Origin: Streptomyces spiramyceticus
GTDB lineage: Bacteria > Actinomycetota > Actinomycetes > Streptomycetales > Streptomycetaceae
Length of the DNA: 64,000 nt
Direction: 5' to 3'
Assembly (NCBI RefSeq): GCF_028807635.1
Contig: NZ_JARBAX010000001.1
Location: 2,321,001-2,385,000 of the forward strand
Within the stretch, counting starts at the first letter, position 1, and every line of letters begins with the position of its first letter. Shown here piece after piece: positions 19,713-26,825 of this stretch. The notes under the pieces were generated by a model. That model was given only the letters and a program-made list of their open reading frames with translations. It had not been told where the DNA came from and searched no databases. The position numbers and the translations under genes are program-made.

Positions 19713-20981
19713 CTATGGCTGGGCCGGGGACGACTGCCGCGTGTCCTGGGGGACGGTTTCCGGGGTGTCGTCCGTCACGGCCAGCCAGCCGCCGACGCCC
19801 AGAGCGGCGGTGATCACGACCGCCGCCCCGCCGAGCAGGATGCGGCGCCTACGCACCGTGTCCGACTTGTGGCGGGCCGAACCGGGACGGCGCTGGCCCG
19901 CCGCACGGGGGACGCGGGCCGTGCCCCGTGCGCCGCCGGCCAGCTCGTCGGGGGCCGGGACGCGCATGCTCGTGTGGGTGTCGCGGCTGGAGTCGAGGGC
20001 CGAGCCGGGCACGAGCGGGACGGCGCCGCGGCGGCGCGGTTCGTCGGGTCCTGCCGGCCGCTGGGAGGGGTCGTCGTACGCCGCGCCTGCCGGGTTTGCT
20101 GCGTATCCGTCCCCCTCCGCCTCCGAGTCCGGCTCATCCACGTCCAGCGGCGGCATTCCGGCGAGAAGGGGCAGCTGGTCGCGGAGGCGGGCGGAGAGCT
20201 CGGAGGCGCGCAGCCGGGACGCCGGAGCCTTCGCCAGGCACTGGACGATGAGCTGCCAGAGCTCTTCCGGGATGCCGGGGAGGGGGACGACTGTCTCGGT
20301 GACGTGGCGGCGCAGTACGGCGCCAGGGTGGCCGCCGCCGAAGGGAGTGAAGCCCGCCAGGAGTTCGTACAGGACGGTGGCCAGCGCGTAGATGTCGACG
20401 GCAGCACGGGGCGGCAGGCCCTCGACGATCTCGGGGGCGAGGTAGTCCGGCGTACCGATGATCTTTGTCGCGCGGGTGCGGCGCGGGGTGTCGATCAGCT
20501 TGGCCACGCCGAAGTCCGTCAGCAGCGCGGGGTGCGCGCCGCCGGGGCCGAGGGGGCCCTCCATGTCCAGGAGGATGTTCTCCGGCTTCACGTCGCGGTG
20601 GACGACGCCTGCCGCATGTGCGGCGGCGAGGCCGTCGGCGACGTCGGCGGCGATCGCGACGGCCGCCTCGGGCGCCAGGCGGCGCTCGCGGTCGAGCCGG
20701 GTGCGCAGGTCGGTGCCGCGTACGAGGTCCATGACCAGCGCGAGGTCGTTGCCGTCGACGACGAGGTCACTGACGGAGACGACCCGGGGGTGGTCCAGTC
20801 CGAGCAGCGCGGTGCGCTCCTGGACGAAGCGCCCGACGAGCTCCTGGTCGGACGCGAGGTCCTCACGCAGCAGCTTGATGGCGACGGGGCCCTCGGGTCC
20901 GTCACCCAGCCACACCGTGCCGGCACTGCCCCGTCCCAGGATCTGGTGGGCGGTGTACCGGCTGCCGATCTTCCGTGCCAA
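19713..20981 (-). CDS. pkaB: Ser/Thr protein kinase PkaB
   Basis: 422-aa eukaryotic-type kinase. Catalytic domain ~1-270: Gly loop LGRGSAGTVW, VAIKLLRED with the ATP lysine, HRDVKPENILL, LTDFGVAKL, and the APE region as DYLAPEIVEG. A Pro/acidic linker leads to a single membrane helix near residue 385 (RRILLGGAAVVITAALGVGGW) and a short outer tail with no PASTA domains. The start is TTG 20981 with GGGAG six bases upstream. It corresponds to PkaB of S. coelicolor (recalled). A stem-loop lies between pkaA and this gene, so the two are only partly coupled. Confidence 0.92.
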   Translation of the reverse strand: MARKIGSRYTAHQILGRGSAGTVWLGDGPEGPVAIKLLREDLASDQELVGRFVQERTALLGLDHPRVVSVSDLVVDGNDLALVMDLVRGTDLRTRLDRERRLAPEAAVAIAADVADGLAAAHAAGVVHRDVKPENILLDMEGPLGPGGAHPALLTDFGVAKLIDTPRRTRATKIIGTPDYLAPEIVEGLPPRAAVDIYALATVLYELLAGFTPFGGGHPGAVLRRHVTETVVPLPGIPEELWQLIVQCLAKAPASRLRASELSARLRDQLPLLAGMPPLDVDEPDSEAEGDGYAANPAGAAYDDPSQRPAGPDEPRRRGAVPLVPGSALDSSRDTHTSMRVPAPDELAGGARGTARVPRAAGQRRPGSARHKSDTVRRRRILLGGAAVVITAALGVGGWLAVTDDTPETVPQDTRQSSPAQP

Positions 20982-21118: not shown

Positions 21119-22762
21119 TCAGCCGGCAGTTCCGGTTCCCGGTCCGCCGAGTTCGCTCAGAAACTTCTCGACCTTGTCGTAGACGTCGCCGATCTGGGCG
21201 AAGAAGCCCTTCGTCGTACCGATCCACTCCTGGAGCGGGGACAGCTCCCAGATCAGCCAGGACGCCACGAACAGCAGGAGGAACGTGAACAGGCAGCCCT
21301 TCAGGCAGCCGAGGCCCGGGATCCGCATCGGGTTGGCGCTGCGACGGCGCGGCTCGCGGGGCTCGCGCGGCGGGCGCGGGGCCAGCTGAGCGGGCTGCTG
21401 CGGCGGCGCGTACCGCTGCTGCGGGGCCGGAGCCTGGGGCTGCTGGTACTGCGGCGGGGGCGGCGGGGCGTACCGCTGCGGAGGCTGCGGACGCTGTTGC
21501 TGCTGATGCTGCGGGGGGCGCTGCTGCTGTTGCGGCTGCTGATGCTGCTGCGGCTGGCGCTGGGGGCGGCGGCGCAGCGGGTCCTGGCTCGGGTCGAGGT
21601 ACTGGACCTGGGTCTGCTCGTTGCGGTCGCGGGCCGCGCGCAGCTGGCTCTGCCAGGGGTGCGGGTCCTCGGGGCCGGGGGCGCCCTGCGGTACCGGCGG
21701 CATGACTGCGGTCGGGTCGGCGGCACCCCCCTGGTGCGCGCCGGCCGACGGCATGACGCTGGTCGCGGCACTCGGGTCGTACGAGCCCGCGTTGCTCGGC
21801 AGCACCTGGGTCGGGTCGGCGGCACCCGGGGCGCCCGGGACCGGTGCGGGCGCCGGGTCGGGCGCGAGCAAAGCGCCGACGCCCATGGCCGCCTCGACCT
21901 GGGCGGCGGACGAGTGCACGCCGACGCCGGCCGAGACGGTGCGCAGGGCGCGGGCGAGGTTCTCGGCGCTGGGCCGCTCGTCCGGTTCCTTGCGCAGGCA
22001 GCGCTCTATGACCGTCCAGAGCGGCTCGGGGACGGTGGTGGGGCGGCGGGGCTCCTCGCTGAGGTGACGGTGGAGCACCTCCAGCGCCGTACCGCCCGCG
22101 AACGGGGGACGCCCGGTGACCAGCTCGTACAGCAGGATGCCCGCGCCGTAGATGTCGACGGCGGAGGTCTGCGGGCGCCCCTCGGCGGACTCCGGGGCGA
22201 CGTAGGCCGGCGTACCGACGAACTCGTGCGTACGGGTGAGGCCCGGGGAGTCCGCGAGGCGCGCGATGCCGAAGTCGGTGAGCATCGGGTGCATCTGGCC
22301 GTCGCGCTCGTCGAGCAGGACGTTCGCGGGCTTGAGGTCGCGGTGGACCACGCCGTCGGCGTGGCTGGCGGCGAGCGCGTCCGCGATCTGCGCGGTGAGG
22401 AGGGAGGCGGCGACCGGCGAGAACGGACCGTTGTCGCGGAGATAGCGGTGCAGGTCCGGGCCGTCGATCAGGTCCATCACAAGGGCGAGCAGGTCGCCCT
22501 CGACGACCAGGTCGCGGGTCCGCACGATGTTGGGGTGCGTCAGACGCAGCAGTACGGAGCGTTCGCGCAGGAAGCGCATCACCACGTCCGCGTCGTTCGC
22601 GAGCTCCTCCTTGAGGACCTTGATCGCGACGGTCTCGCCGGGCTGGCCGGCCACGGCCGCCTCGGCGCCTGCGGTCTCGCGCTGGCGGGCTCGCCAGACG
22701 GTGCCCGTGGCGCCGCGCCCGAGCGGCTCCTCGAGCAGGTATTTGCTGCCTACCGGCCGCAC
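21119..22762 (-). CDS. pkaA: Ser/Thr protein kinase PkaA with Pro/Gln-rich tether
   Basis: 547-aa kinase. Catalytic domain ~1-275: LGRGATGTVW, VAIKVLKEEL, HRDLKPANVLL, LTDFGIARL, AYVAPESAEG. Residues ~275-475 are a disordered linker rich in Pro and Gln, with runs of QQ and PQ. One hydrophobic helix (CLKGCLFTFLLLFVASWLIWEL) lies near residue 490, followed by a ~45-residue outer tail. GTG 22762 is the start. It matches PkaA of S. coelicolor (recalled). It is divergent from the FHA/FtsK-like gene over 463 bases; an FHA protein beside two kinases suggests a phospho-Thr signalling module. Confidence 0.92.
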   Translation of the reverse strand: MRPVGSKYLLEEPLGRGATGTVWRARQRETAGAEAAVAGQPGETVAIKVLKEELANDADVVMRFLRERSVLLRLTHPNIVRTRDLVVEGDLLALVMDLIDGPDLHRYLRDNGPFSPVAASLLTAQIADALAASHADGVVHRDLKPANVLLDERDGQMHPMLTDFGIARLADSPGLTRTHEFVGTPAYVAPESAEGRPQTSAVDIYGAGILLYELVTGRPPFAGGTALEVLHRHLSEEPRRPTTVPEPLWTVIERCLRKEPDERPSAENLARALRTVSAGVGVHSSAAQVEAAMGVGALLAPDPAPAPVPGAPGAADPTQVLPSNAGSYDPSAATSVMPSAGAHQGGAADPTAVMPPVPQGAPGPEDPHPWQSQLRAARDRNEQTQVQYLDPSQDPLRRRPQRQPQQHQQPQQQQRPPQHQQQQRPQPPQRYAPPPPPQYQQPQAPAPQQRYAPPQQPAQLAPRPPREPREPRRRSANPMRIPGLGCLKGCLFTFLLLFVASWLIWELSPLQEWIGTTKGFFAQIGDVYDKVEKFLSELGGPGTGTAG

Positions 22763-22951
22763 GTCATGCGCTCCCTGCTGCTCGTGGTGTACGCCGTTTC
22801 ATTGCGTTTCTGCTGCGTTCTACGGCGTTCTACGTCGTCCCGGGCGCTCGGGCCCGCATTCCGACCCACTGTAATGCCGCCCGAGTGCCACTGAACGGGG
22901 CACAGGCGGGTCGTGTTCGAGGGAAGACGCACGCATCGCATGGATGGTTGC

Positions 22952-22965
22952 CGAACATGCGTTCC
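22952..22965. promoter_or_regulatory. LexA-like (SOS) box
   Basis: CGAAC-ATGC-GTTCC matches the actinobacterial SOS box CGAAC-N4-GTTCG with one mismatch and contains the full dyad GAAC-N4-GTTC. It lies ~190 bases upstream of the pkaA start and ~260 upstream of the FHA gene start, so it could act on either. Confidence 0.45.
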
Positions 22966-23225: not shown

Positions 23226-26200
23226 ATGCAGATCCGGCTGACCGTCCTCGCGCCGCGCAGCGGCCAGAGCACCCACGCCGTGCGTGACGTCCTCGTCACC
23301 GCGCCCGCCGGAACGGCGCTGGCCGCCGTGGCCTCGGGCCTGGCCACCGCGGTGTCCGGTCCCGGCTCGGGCCCCGAGACGACCGGCGCGGTGGTGGTCT
23401 ACGCGGGGCGGGAGCGGCTCGACGCGCAGCGCTGCGCGCTGGGTGAGCCGCCGCTGGTCGACGGGGCGGTGCTGTCGCTGCACGCGCCCGCGCCGGACGG
23501 CGAGGCCCCGACGGCCCTGACCGCCCTGACGGAGACCACGCCTGCCCAACTGCACGTGGTGGCGGGCCCCGACGCCGGAGGCATCCACCTCCTCCACGGC
23601 GGCCAGGTCCGCATCGGCCGCTCCACGGACGCGGACGTGCCGCTGGACGACCCGGACGTGTCCCGGCTGCACTGCGCGGTGACGCTGGCGGAGGACGGCC
23701 GGGTCTCGGTGGAGGACCTCGGCTCCACGAACGGCACCGCCCTGGACGGCAAGGAAGTTACCGCCCGCCCGGTACGCCTGACACCGGGCGCGCTGCTACG
23801 CGTAGGCGAATCCGCCCTGCGCCTGACCCCCGGAAACCCCCGCGCGACGCTCCCGACAACCCCGGACGGCGAGGGTCACCTCCGCGTAACCCGCACGCCG
23901 GACGAGACGACCGGAAGCACGACCGGCACAACCCCGGAGGGGCCGATCCCGGGCCCGCACCGCGCGGGCACAGTCCCGTACGGCCCGGCGACGGGTTCAC
24001 ACCACCCGAGTGCGGCGTCCGGCGCCGACGTGACTGCGCGGGGCACCGGCGCGGGCTCCGTGCGGGGCTCTTCGGCGCCCGGTGGGCGCCGTGTCTCCGG
24101 TCGCCCACCCGCGGCGGCCTCCCCTGCCCCGGCATCGCAGAGCACGGCAGCAGGCGACCGCCCCGGACCCGTCCCGCACGACGATCAGGGCCGGGCAATG
24201 CCCGCTGCGGGCGGCACCTACGGCGAGCACGGCGGGCCCGCTCCGACAGCGTCCCCAAGTGACGCGTACGGCCCCGGTGGCCGGCCCGGCGCCGCGAGCG
24301 CCGCGTACAGCCACGGACCGACAGCGCCGCATCACACCGGCGACCAGTCCGCGCCCGCCACCCACGGCGGCCCCGCCGGCCCGCAGGGCAGCGCCGGCTT
24401 CGGCGACGGCGCCCACGGCCCCGGCAACAGCCCGAATCGCCCGGCCCAAGGCGTCGCCCACGGCGGGCCCGTCCCCGCCGGGAGTGATGTCACGCACGCA
24501 CACGCCGCCTACGGCAGCGACGGTCGCCCCACGGCCGGTGCGCACCCCGGTGACGCCCCCGCCACCGGGCGCAGTCGCGAGGTGTACTCCGAGGCCCCCC
24601 GTCGACGGGGCGGCCGGGGTGGCATAGGGGCCTGGGCGCGGCGGCTTGCCGGGGGGCGGGCGGAGACCGTGGACGAGTACGCACCGGCCGAAGCCACTCC
24701 GGTCGGGATGCCGCCCGCCCACGGCGTCGCCGCCGTGCCGTCGGCCACCTCGACCACCGCCGCCCTGCCCGAGGCCTGGCCCGATCCGGCCTCGCTTCTG
24801 CTCACCGCACTCGGCCCCGGCCCCCGGCTGTGGGAGCGCGGCCCCGGGCACCCCGAGGCGCTCGTGCTCCGGCTCGGCACCGCCGACCGGGCCGCGCCCG
24901 ACGGCGGGCGCCCGCTGCCCGCCGTTCCGGTGACCGTAGGGCTGCGGGAAGTCGGCTCGCTGGGGCTCGCCGGGCCCCGCGCACGGCTGGCCGGGCTCGC
25001 CCGGTCCGCCGTGGCGCAACTCGCCGCGCTGCACTCCCCCACAGACCTCGAAATCGTGCTGATCAGTACGGACAGGTCAAGGGCCGTCGAAGAGCGCACC
25101 GCTGAGTGGGCCTGGCTCGGCTGGCTGCCTCATCTGCGGCCCGCCCACGGCCAGGACTGCCGGCTGCTCCTCGCGTACGACAAGGACCAGGCCGCCGCCC
25201 GCGTCGCCGAACTGGTGCGCCGCACCGACGAGGAACCGCAGGGGAGCGGCGCCGAAGGGCCGTACACCGTCGTCATCGTCGACGGCGACCCCGGCTCCAC
25301 CGCGCTGCGCGACGCCACCGCCCGGCTCGCCGCGACCGGCGCCGCGTCCGGTATCCACCTCGTCTGCCTGGCCGAGACGCCCGCCGCGTCCCCTCTGTCC
25401 CCTGTTGCCGAGACGTACGAAGCCGCCTGCGCGGTGTCGGCGCCGTTCCGCGAGTGCGGGGCCGCCGCGCTGCTCAGCGGCGATGTGGCCACCGCGCTGC
25501 GGCTGCTGCGTACGGCGGGCGGTCAGCCCGCGGGGCGCGGCACGCTGGGCGCGGTGGACGCGGTGTCCGCCGCCTGGGCGGAGCGTTTCGGGCGGGCGCT
25601 GGCCCCGCTGCGTGCGGACGGACCGCCGGCCGGACGCCCCGGCCGCGCCGCCGCGCTGCCCGCCTCCGCCCGGCTGCTGGACGAGCTGGGCCTGGCCAGG
25701 GCCACCCCGGCCTCCCTGATGGCGCGCTGGGCGGCCGCGGCCGACGACGGTCAGGCGCCCGGAGCCACGCGCGCGTGGGCGGTGCTCGGGGCGGGCCCGC
25801 GCGGACCGCTGTGTGTCGACCTGACCGCCGAGGGGCCGCATCTGCTGATCGAGGGCCCGGCCGGCAGCGGCCGCACCGAGCTGCTGCGTTCCGTCGCCGC
25901 GTCGCTGGCCGCCGCCGCCCGCCCGGACCGGCTCGGTCTCGTCCTCGTCGACGGCGCGGGCGGCGGACGCGGCGACGGCCTGCGCGCCTGCACCGAACTG
26001 CCACACGTGTCGACCCATCTGGTGGCGTCCGACCCCGTCCGGATGCGGGAGTTCGCCCAGGCCCTGGGCGCCGAGCTGAAGCGGCGCCACGAGCTGCTCG
26101 GCAGCCTCGGCTTCGCCGAATGGCACATGAACTGCGAGATCTCCGGCCGGCTGATCAACCAGCGACCGCCCAGCGCCGCCGAGCAGCGCGGCGACCTCGA

Positions 26201-26825
26201 CCCGGCCCCCAGCGGCACGCTGCGCCTGCGGACCACCACGGCCCGGGCCCAGCAGGCCCGCCCGGACACCGGCCCGTCCCCGCTCCCCCGTCTCGTCGTC
26301 CTCGTCGACGACCTCGACGCGCTGGTCGCGCCCGCCCTCGGCAGTACGGGCAGGCCTACGGCGGGTTCGGTCGTACGGGCCCTGGAAGCGGTGGCCAGGG
26401 ACGGCGAGCGGCTCGGCGTGCATCTGGTGGCCACATCCGCCAGGCCGGACCGTACGGCGGACACCGAGCTGGCCCGTGGGACGCGGCTGCGCGTGGCGCT
26501 GGACGCCCCGCCGTCCGCCCCCATACCCGACGAGCCTGCGGCGGGACGCGGCAGGCTGCGGCACGCGGACGGCTCCGCGACGCCGTTCCAGGGGGGCCGG
26601 GTCACCGGACGCATTCCCCGTACGGCGACTCTGCGGCCCACCGTCGTGCCCCTGGAGTGGGAGCGGATGGGCGATCCGCCGACCCGGCGCCCGGTGCGCG
26701 AGCTCGGCAACGGGCCGACGGACCTGGCTCTGCTGGCCAGCGCCCTGGACCGGGCGGCCCGCACGGTCAACGCGTCACCGTTGCCGCCTCTCGGCACCCC
26801 CGTCACACCTCGCCCTGAAGCCTGA
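23226..26825 (+). CDS. FHA domain protein with EccC/FtsK-like ATPase module, soluble
   Basis: 1199-aa protein. Residues 1-~90 are a small beta-rich domain like the N-terminus of EssC-type proteins. An FHA domain (~108-200: VRIGRSTDADVPL, SRLHC, GSTNGT) has the phospho-threonine-binding Arg, Ser-x-x-His and Asn residues. Residues ~205-490 are a disordered Gly/Pro/His linker. From ~515 the EccC/EssC pre-ATPase fold appears (PRLWERGPGHPEALVLRLG, WLGWLPHLRP), then a P-loop domain with Walker A GPAGSGRT (~877-884; the usual Lys is Arg) and Walker B LVVLVDDLDAL (~1024-1034). No membrane helices or WXG100 neighbours are seen, so this is not an ordinary type VII secretion motor. The start ATG 23226 has AAGGGA upstream. 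It is divergent from pkaA, whose phospho-targets it may bind. Confidence 0.82.
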   Translation: MQIRLTVLAPRSGQSTHAVRDVLVTAPAGTALAAVASGLATAVSGPGSGPETTGAVVVYAGRERLDAQRCALGEPPLVDGAVLSLHAPAPDGEAPTALTALTETTPAQLHVVAGPDAGGIHLLHGGQVRIGRSTDADVPLDDPDVSRLHCAVTLAEDGRVSVEDLGSTNGTALDGKEVTARPVRLTPGALLRVGESALRLTPGNPRATLPTTPDGEGHLRVTRTPDETTGSTTGTTPEGPIPGPHRAGTVPYGPATGSHHPSAASGADVTARGTGAGSVRGSSAPGGRRVSGRPPAAASPAPASQSTAAGDRPGPVPHDDQGRAMPAAGGTYGEHGGPAPTASPSDAYGPGGRPGAASAAYSHGPTAPHHTGDQSAPATHGGPAGPQGSAGFGDGAHGPGNSPNRPAQGVAHGGPVPAGSDVTHAHAAYGSDGRPTAGAHPGDAPATGRSREVYSEAPRRRGGRGGIGAWARRLAGGRAETVDEYAPAEATPVGMPPAHGVAAVPSATSTTAALPEAWPDPASLLLTALGPGPRLWERGPGHPEALVLRLGTADRAAPDGGRPLPAVPVTVGLREVGSLGLAGPRARLAGLARSAVAQLAALHSPTDLEIVLISTDRSRAVEERTAEWAWLGWLPHLRPAHGQDCRLLLAYDKDQAAARVAELVRRTDEEPQGSGAEGPYTVVIVDGDPGSTALRDATARLAATGAASGIHLVCLAETPAASPLSPVAETYEAACAVSAPFRECGAAALLSGDVATALRLLRTAGGQPAGRGTLGAVDAVSAAWAERFGRALAPLRADGPPAGRPGRAAALPASARLLDELGLARATPASLMARWAAAADDGQAPGATRAWAVLGAGPRGPLCVDLTAEGPHLLIEGPAGSGRTELLRSVAASLAAAARPDRLGLVLVDGAGGGRGDGLRACTELPHVSTHLVASDPVRMREFAQALGAELKRRHELLGSLGFAEWHMNCEISGRLINQRPPSAAEQRGDLDPAPSGTLRLRTTTARAQQARPDTGPSPLPRLVVLVDDLDALVAPALGSTGRPTAGSVVRALEAVARDGERLGVHLVATSARPDRTADTELARGTRLRVALDAPPSAPIPDEPAAGRGRLRHADGSATPFQGGRVTGRIPRTATLRPTVVPLEWERMGDPPTRRPVRELGNGPTDLALLASALDRAARTVNASPLPPLGTPVTPRPEA

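Follow-up and report, generated by a model that had tools for sequence, protein, structure and literature searches.

The window analysed here is a stretch of 64,000 nucleotides from Streptomyces spiramyceticus (assembly GCF_028807635.1, contig NZ_JARBAX010000001.1, positions 2,321,001 to 2,385,000). It carries, at 23226..26825 on the forward strand, a gene for a 1199-residue protein that combines an FHA domain with a degenerate ATPase module of the EccC/EssC (type VII secretion) kind, and that lies divergent from the Ser/Thr kinase genes pkaA and pkaB. A sequence-only reading had placed the frame at these coordinates, which were checked and hold, and had taken the product for a possible phospho-threonine-gated P-loop machine. 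The mechanical open frame extends from 22944 and is longer than the conserved start, an ATG at 23226, would give; the protein begins MQIRL in 23/23 aligned rows, and MQLR in four more distant orthologues. The features of the gene and of its promoter-side neighbour are as follows.

23226..26825, +, FHA/pseudo-EccC protein (1199 amino acids, aa), orthologue of SCO2975
23226..23510, +, N-terminal domain, aa 1-95 (AlphaFold2 model and conservation)
23607..23807, +, FHA domain, aa 128-194 by Pfam (Pfam, conserved columns, fold match)
23841..24770, +, low-complexity linker, aa ~206-515 (poor conservation across rows)
24774..25616, +, EccC-type domain of unknown function (DUF), aa 517-797
25641..26822, +, FtsK/EccC ATPase module, aa 806-1199
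25854..25877, +, degenerate Walker A GPAGSGRT, Arg for Lys (alignments of 120 and 91 rows)
26292..26312, +, degenerate Walker B LVVLVDD, Asp for Glu (alignments of 120 and 91 rows)
26712..26747, +, C-terminal GPTDLALLASAL segment (row alignments)
22924..22952, -, sigma-E-type promoter motif GGCAAC-N17-CGTCTT toward pkaA (consensus scan of intergenic regions)
21119..22762, -, PkaA, Ser/Thr kinase, single membrane helix at aa 486-504 (Pfam, hydropathy)
21698..21811, -, PkaA linker array, T-x-V-(L/M)-P three times (at Thr 318, 334 and 351), candidate sites for FHA docking

Domain architecture of the FHA/pseudo-EccC protein

A short N-terminal domain is followed by FHA, the low-complexity linker and the EccC-type DUF domain, and a single FtsK/EccC ATPase module ends the chain. 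Profile searches recovered both Pfam domains expected from the sequence-only reading, FHA (aa 128-194, 2e-17) and FtsK_SpoIIIE (aa 861-1074, 8e-18); the latter is a single stretch, where several modules are expected of EccC/EssC. The EccCa model (TIGR03924) matches only in part and below its cut-off (151.9 bits against 509.15), as does the EssC model (TIGR03928; 76.5 bits against 778.4). A linker had been described at about 280 residues; it is present, with a length of about 310, and is much shorter in orthologues of family f3 (about 85 residues in L126).

The FHA domain is intact, as had been claimed. Its pocket residues (GR, SRxH, STNG) do not vary across 120 rows or, separately, across 23 rows, and all three are present in 9/10 distant orthologues, the other (L171) having STNG only. 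An AlphaFold2 model of the 215 N-terminal residues (mean pLDDT, the model's per-residue confidence score, 78.7) places the FHA part in the fold of the FHA domains of DgcB, GarA and OdhI, so that the window protein has both the fold and the conserved residues of a phospho-threonine reader. The predicted strand order of aa 1-95 (beta-beta-alpha-beta-beta-beta) looks ubiquitin-like by our own reading of the model; structure searches with it returned FHA domains only, and barely probe this region.

No membrane helix was predicted in the window protein by simple hydropathy (best 19-residue value 1.68, threshold 1.8), in line with the earlier view of a soluble protein. Eight of the 120 rows just reach 1.80-1.81, and in 5/10 distant orthologues the best value is 1.82-1.91, at most within a folded core.

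The protein search found at least 3695 proteins at E <=0.001 (among the 7988 candidates scored), of which the best 120, the window protein included, were aligned; these numbers rule out an isolated remnant, and the FHA/pseudo-EccC protein is a conserved family. Among plasmids, 24 records gave partial matches, none covering >80 percent of the query.

Catalytic motifs and type VII ancestry

The Walker A sequence GPAGSGRT and the Asp-Asp Walker B are as previously described, and the P-loop Arg and the Asp-Asp are the same in 120/120 rows (the window protein and 119 close homologues). Across 91 rows that include f3, the catalytic Lys position holds Arg in 81, Val in 9 and Lys in 1, and Walker B reads DD in 82, DN in 8 and DG in 1, never Asp-Glu. 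The Val residues include all nine f3 orthologues (9/9), and the sole Lys is that of Streptantibioticus ferralitis (L072). For the more distant orthologues only Walker A was read: L169, L170 and L173 have Ile or Val at the Lys position, and L171 reads GPAASALL. Since the replacements extend across close, f3 and distant orthologues, the loss is old and general. The orthologues thus lack the intact Walker A and B of FtsK/SpoIIIE DNA translocases, and the ATPase module looks dead on these residues; a motor cycle is unlikely and a scaffold fits better. Among the genomes with the S. coelicolor promoter motif (see below), one orthologue, L142 (genome G170), has a frame break at about 2690-2740, between the DUF and ATPase modules, and L143 and L144 are single open frames.

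The pre-ATPase region of the window protein matches the EccC5 DUF structure, and the ATPase fold is also retained, so that a DUF fold precedes ATPase 1 as in EccC/EssC. The earlier description of one P-loop module needs correcting: the EccC5 DUF structure is of a P-loop-type fold, which brings the number of degenerate modules in the protein to two. Near the C-terminus, the PTDL..LL part of the GPTDLALLASAL segment is retained in the distant orthologues shown, L171 excepted; it outlasts the Walker motifs, which suggests a binding role.

By sequence and by tree the nearest known proteins are the EssC/EccC type VII ATPases (TIGR03928, TIGR03924; structures 4nh0, 8rin, 4lya), with which the DUF plus ATPase architecture and fold are shared. 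In contrast to these, the FHA protein is predicted to lack a membrane helix and has a single ATPase module where they have several, replaced catalytic Lys and Glu, no WXG100 neighbour, and a linkage to Ser/Thr kinases. In a midpoint-rooted tree of 22 rows, L171 and L136 being the long ones, 16 orthologues stand apart from six EssC-like and EccC rows with support 99/97. According to the sequence-only reading, helix-bearing homologues with WXG100 neighbours would make this an ordinary type VII remnant. Such relatives do exist: the three examined, of 1594, 1640 and 1692 residues, each have a membrane helix and match both the EccCa and EccCb models, and a WXG100 gene adjoins two of them, but they carry an intact Walker A (GTTGAGKS) and fall outside the orthologous clade. 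The membrane EssC-like protein L151 gave no Pfam FHA match at 0.001.

The claimed absence of type VII genes nearby holds for WXG100, whose two genome matches over the cut-off both lie at C1:5.097 Mb (the window spans 2.321-2.385 Mb). EccB, EccD and MycP were not seen in a Pfam scan of 18 neighbouring frames (12937-39429; several without any match, and some probably not genes), which did not search for them by name. Two canonical EccC genes are present elsewhere in the genome. The soluble FHA protein is best read as a type VII motor minus its anchor, later ATPases and catalysis.

Kinase linkage, candidate docking motifs and the pkaA promoter

The expected pkaA-pkaB-FHA synteny was examined in the best 80 of 511 loci from genome contigs (78 titled Streptomyces, one Streptantibioticus and one 'Actinobacteria bacterium'). 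A divergent pkaA followed by pkaB lies beside the FHA gene in 75/80; three loci have no flank (L042, L044, L075), and at two (L049, L076) a different Ser/Thr kinase stands where PkaA would be. These two kinases differ from PkaA in the tail, one with WD40-like repeats (by eye) and the other with a distinct tail. In a sample of 60 genomes of the order, 54 were matched at 1e-50 (45/45 of the genus and 9/15 others), and four of the six unmatched genomes hold a linked orthologue. An orthologue is thus found in 13/15 genomes from the order's other families, and a divergent kinase adjoins it in all 13; PkaB is visible at 10 of these loci, and the contig ends before it in the other three. The kinase linkage is seen in each of the three families sampled. 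On the other side, the downstream solute-binding protein (SBP) transporter gene is present in 79/80 loci and gave no match at 1e-8 in the nine f3 loci tested, so the kinase linkage is kept while the other flank changes. A class sample of 56 genomes outside the genus gave two matches at 1e-20, both EssC-like, a cut-off that a divergent orthologue like that of G002 might escape.

FHA domains are suited by phospho-Thr sites with a hydrophobic residue at +3, the position of their specificity rule. Motifs of the form T-x-x-(L/M/I/V/F)-P, mostly T-x-V-(L/M)-P, occur in 2-5 copies in the PkaA linker of 74/74 orthologues scored in Streptomyces and its near relatives (shuffle mean 0.17): three copies in 44, four in 25, two in 3 and five in 2. 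The 74 comprise 73 of the 80 loci and L136; the loci left out were L049 and L076 (other kinase), L073 (run of N), L095 (frame break) and the three without flank. The array is also found in 9/9 f3 loci, eight with three motifs and one with a single motif, and TVVLP or TRVLP is retained in four further distant loci. As a control, kinases of the genome were scored. Of 31 matches, 30 came with a locus, and 26 of these were covered, 20 with the motif itself and 6 with a looser form of it: PkaA has three motifs, five others have one and 20 have none. DNA coding for DPTxV(L/M)P, a pattern narrower than the motif counted above, occurs twice in the 7.08 Mb genome, both times within pkaA, which rules out a generic proteome-wide phospho-motif. 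On sequence grounds we propose the T-x-x-hydrophobic-Pro motifs of PkaA as candidate phospho-Thr docking sites for the FHA domain.

The motif GGCAAC-N17-CGTCTT faces pkaA in 68/86 intergenic regions (shuffle mean 0). In PMC6767563, sco2974 (pkaA) and sco2975 both stand in the sigma-E target table, SCO2975 only as 'hypothetical protein', and pkaA is one of the 21 target promoters for which conservation in 9 or more of 19 genomes is predicted. The exact sco2974 motif was found in 3/392 genomes, with the FHA gene opposite pkaA in all three, and in two of these the sco2975 motif lies between the two genes on the FHA strand; the FHA family is thereby identified with SCO2975. The conserved sigma-E-type motif of pkaA points to envelope stress. 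A two-hybrid screen linked to sporulation (PMC4416010) gave a PkaA-PkaI interaction.

PkaB and the genes beyond it complete the kinase side.

19713..20981, -, PkaB, Ser/Thr kinase, single membrane helix at aa 381-399, preceded by a conserved DTHTSMRVP stretch

PkaB, like PkaA, has one 19-residue stretch above hydropathy 1.8, and is given as a tail-anchored membrane protein in PMC3087755. Its DTHTSMRVPxPDEL stretch is kept partly in f3, as EDTHLNLMRP, and might be a further site of docking or regulation. The PkaB proteins of f3 (L126-L129, L132, L134) total 716-719 aa, as they continue past the membrane helix with a large additional C-terminal part. Farther on this side are a peptide release factor (presumably prfB), an ABC ATPase and FtsX.

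A proposed adaptor for PkaA

We give a probability of roughly one half to the following reading: the FHA protein is a phospho-threonine-dependent adaptor derived from a retired type VII secretion motor, which docks on PkaA as a scaffold. The sequence shows its composition, the conserved linkage, the loss of catalytic residues, the motif array and the pkaA promoter motif; phosphorylation, binding, recruitment, a client and a physiological role are our inference, and might be connected as follows. PkaA, whose gene has the sigma-E-type motif in most Streptomyces loci examined, would autophosphorylate the Thr residues of its cytoplasmic-linker motifs, or PkaB would phosphorylate them. The FHA domain would bind the phospho-Thr, its specificity set by the +3 Leu/Met, and thereby bring the soluble protein to the membrane. 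There the DUF and ATPase modules, no longer hydrolysing ATP, may form a scaffold, which could be oligomeric and would either hold a client from the envelope or cell division or regulate the kinases. Of the phospho-threonine-gated P-loop machine suggested before, the linkage, the lack of a helix and the FHA pocket have stood, and the candidate docking sites on PkaA lend support; 'P-loop machine' has not stood, given Arg or Val for the Lys in 90/91 rows and a Walker B Glu in 0/91.

Several observations weigh against the adaptor. The neighbouring kinases of L049 and L076 have no array although the FHA gene is present. Inside Streptomyces alone, the linkage could reflect gene order that is conserved in general, as the SBP gene is retained there too. 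In two fragmented genomes no linked orthologue was seen (the sequence fetched was one contig end for G029 and nothing for G027). The sigma-E-type motif toward pkaA is found in 0/9 f3 loci, and in the FHA direction in 0/86 intergenic regions, which rules out a conserved control of the FHA gene by sigma-E and leaves co-regulation of the two genes no more than possible. Finally, Arg at the Lys position may still permit nucleotide binding, and L072 keeps the Lys.

Among the alternatives, the one we would place highest, while still thinking it improbable, is that the FHA domain has its targets among other phosphoproteins (those of the envelope or division, for instance), that the array serves other readers and that the linkage is co-inherited gene order. 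The FHA genes beside array-less kinases fit this, and bacterial FHA proteins can have several partners; against it, the linkage is retained across three families where the downstream gene is not, and the array is peculiar to PkaA among the scored kinases. Somewhat more doubtful is a protein that binds and slowly turns over nucleotide, with phospho-dependent FHA binding gating a real motor cycle. The retained ATPase fold would suit such a cycle, as would the one Lys-bearing orthologue and an Arg and Asp-Asp that are invariant, not drifting, in the 120 close rows, but in f3 and the distant orthologues the Lys position is Val or Ile, L171 reading GPAASALL there, and Walker B is DD, DN or DG throughout the 91 rows. 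We consider least probable an accessory role in the canonical type VII system of the genome, as an inactive subunit docking into the EccC hexamer: the clear EccC/EssC ancestry and the two EccC genes elsewhere would agree with it, whereas WXG100 is not near, the kinase linkage recurs in each sampled family and no membrane helix is predicted.

The adaptor has a precedent in mycobacteria, where FhaA (Rv0020c) binds the phosphorylated juxtamembrane region of the membrane kinase PknB (PMC12077195); the docking on PkaA proposed here is of the same kind. FhaA, by contrast, is not known to have an EccC-derived body, and the motif array in the kinase linker is a PkaA feature. GarA and OdhI are small self-inhibited metabolic regulators, whereas here the FHA domain is fused to a large pseudo-ATPase. 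In Mycobacterium ulcerans, PknQ and MupFHA, encoded on one plasmid, interact; the abstract of PMC4238996 mentions no ATPase part and gives the kinase activation loop as the partner site. The view that no system of this composition has been described agrees with a search of the open-licence literature, which returned no account of an FHA/pseudo-EccC composition and none going beyond 'hypothetical protein'.

For most Streptomyces Ser/Thr kinases no reader is known. The present case offers a specific kinase-reader pair that can be tested, since its docking residues are predicted, and that has a plausible tie to the envelope-stress response under sigma-E. More tentatively, and with less confidence than in the adaptor itself, a type VII motor may have gone out of service close to the root of the Streptomyces order, lost its anchor and catalytic residues, and become the phospho-threonine-recruited scaffold of an envelope-stress kinase pair. 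It would then be a case of a secretion ATPase converted into a non-catalytic signalling part and, if true, a bacterial pseudo-ATPase in eukaryotic-type kinase signalling.

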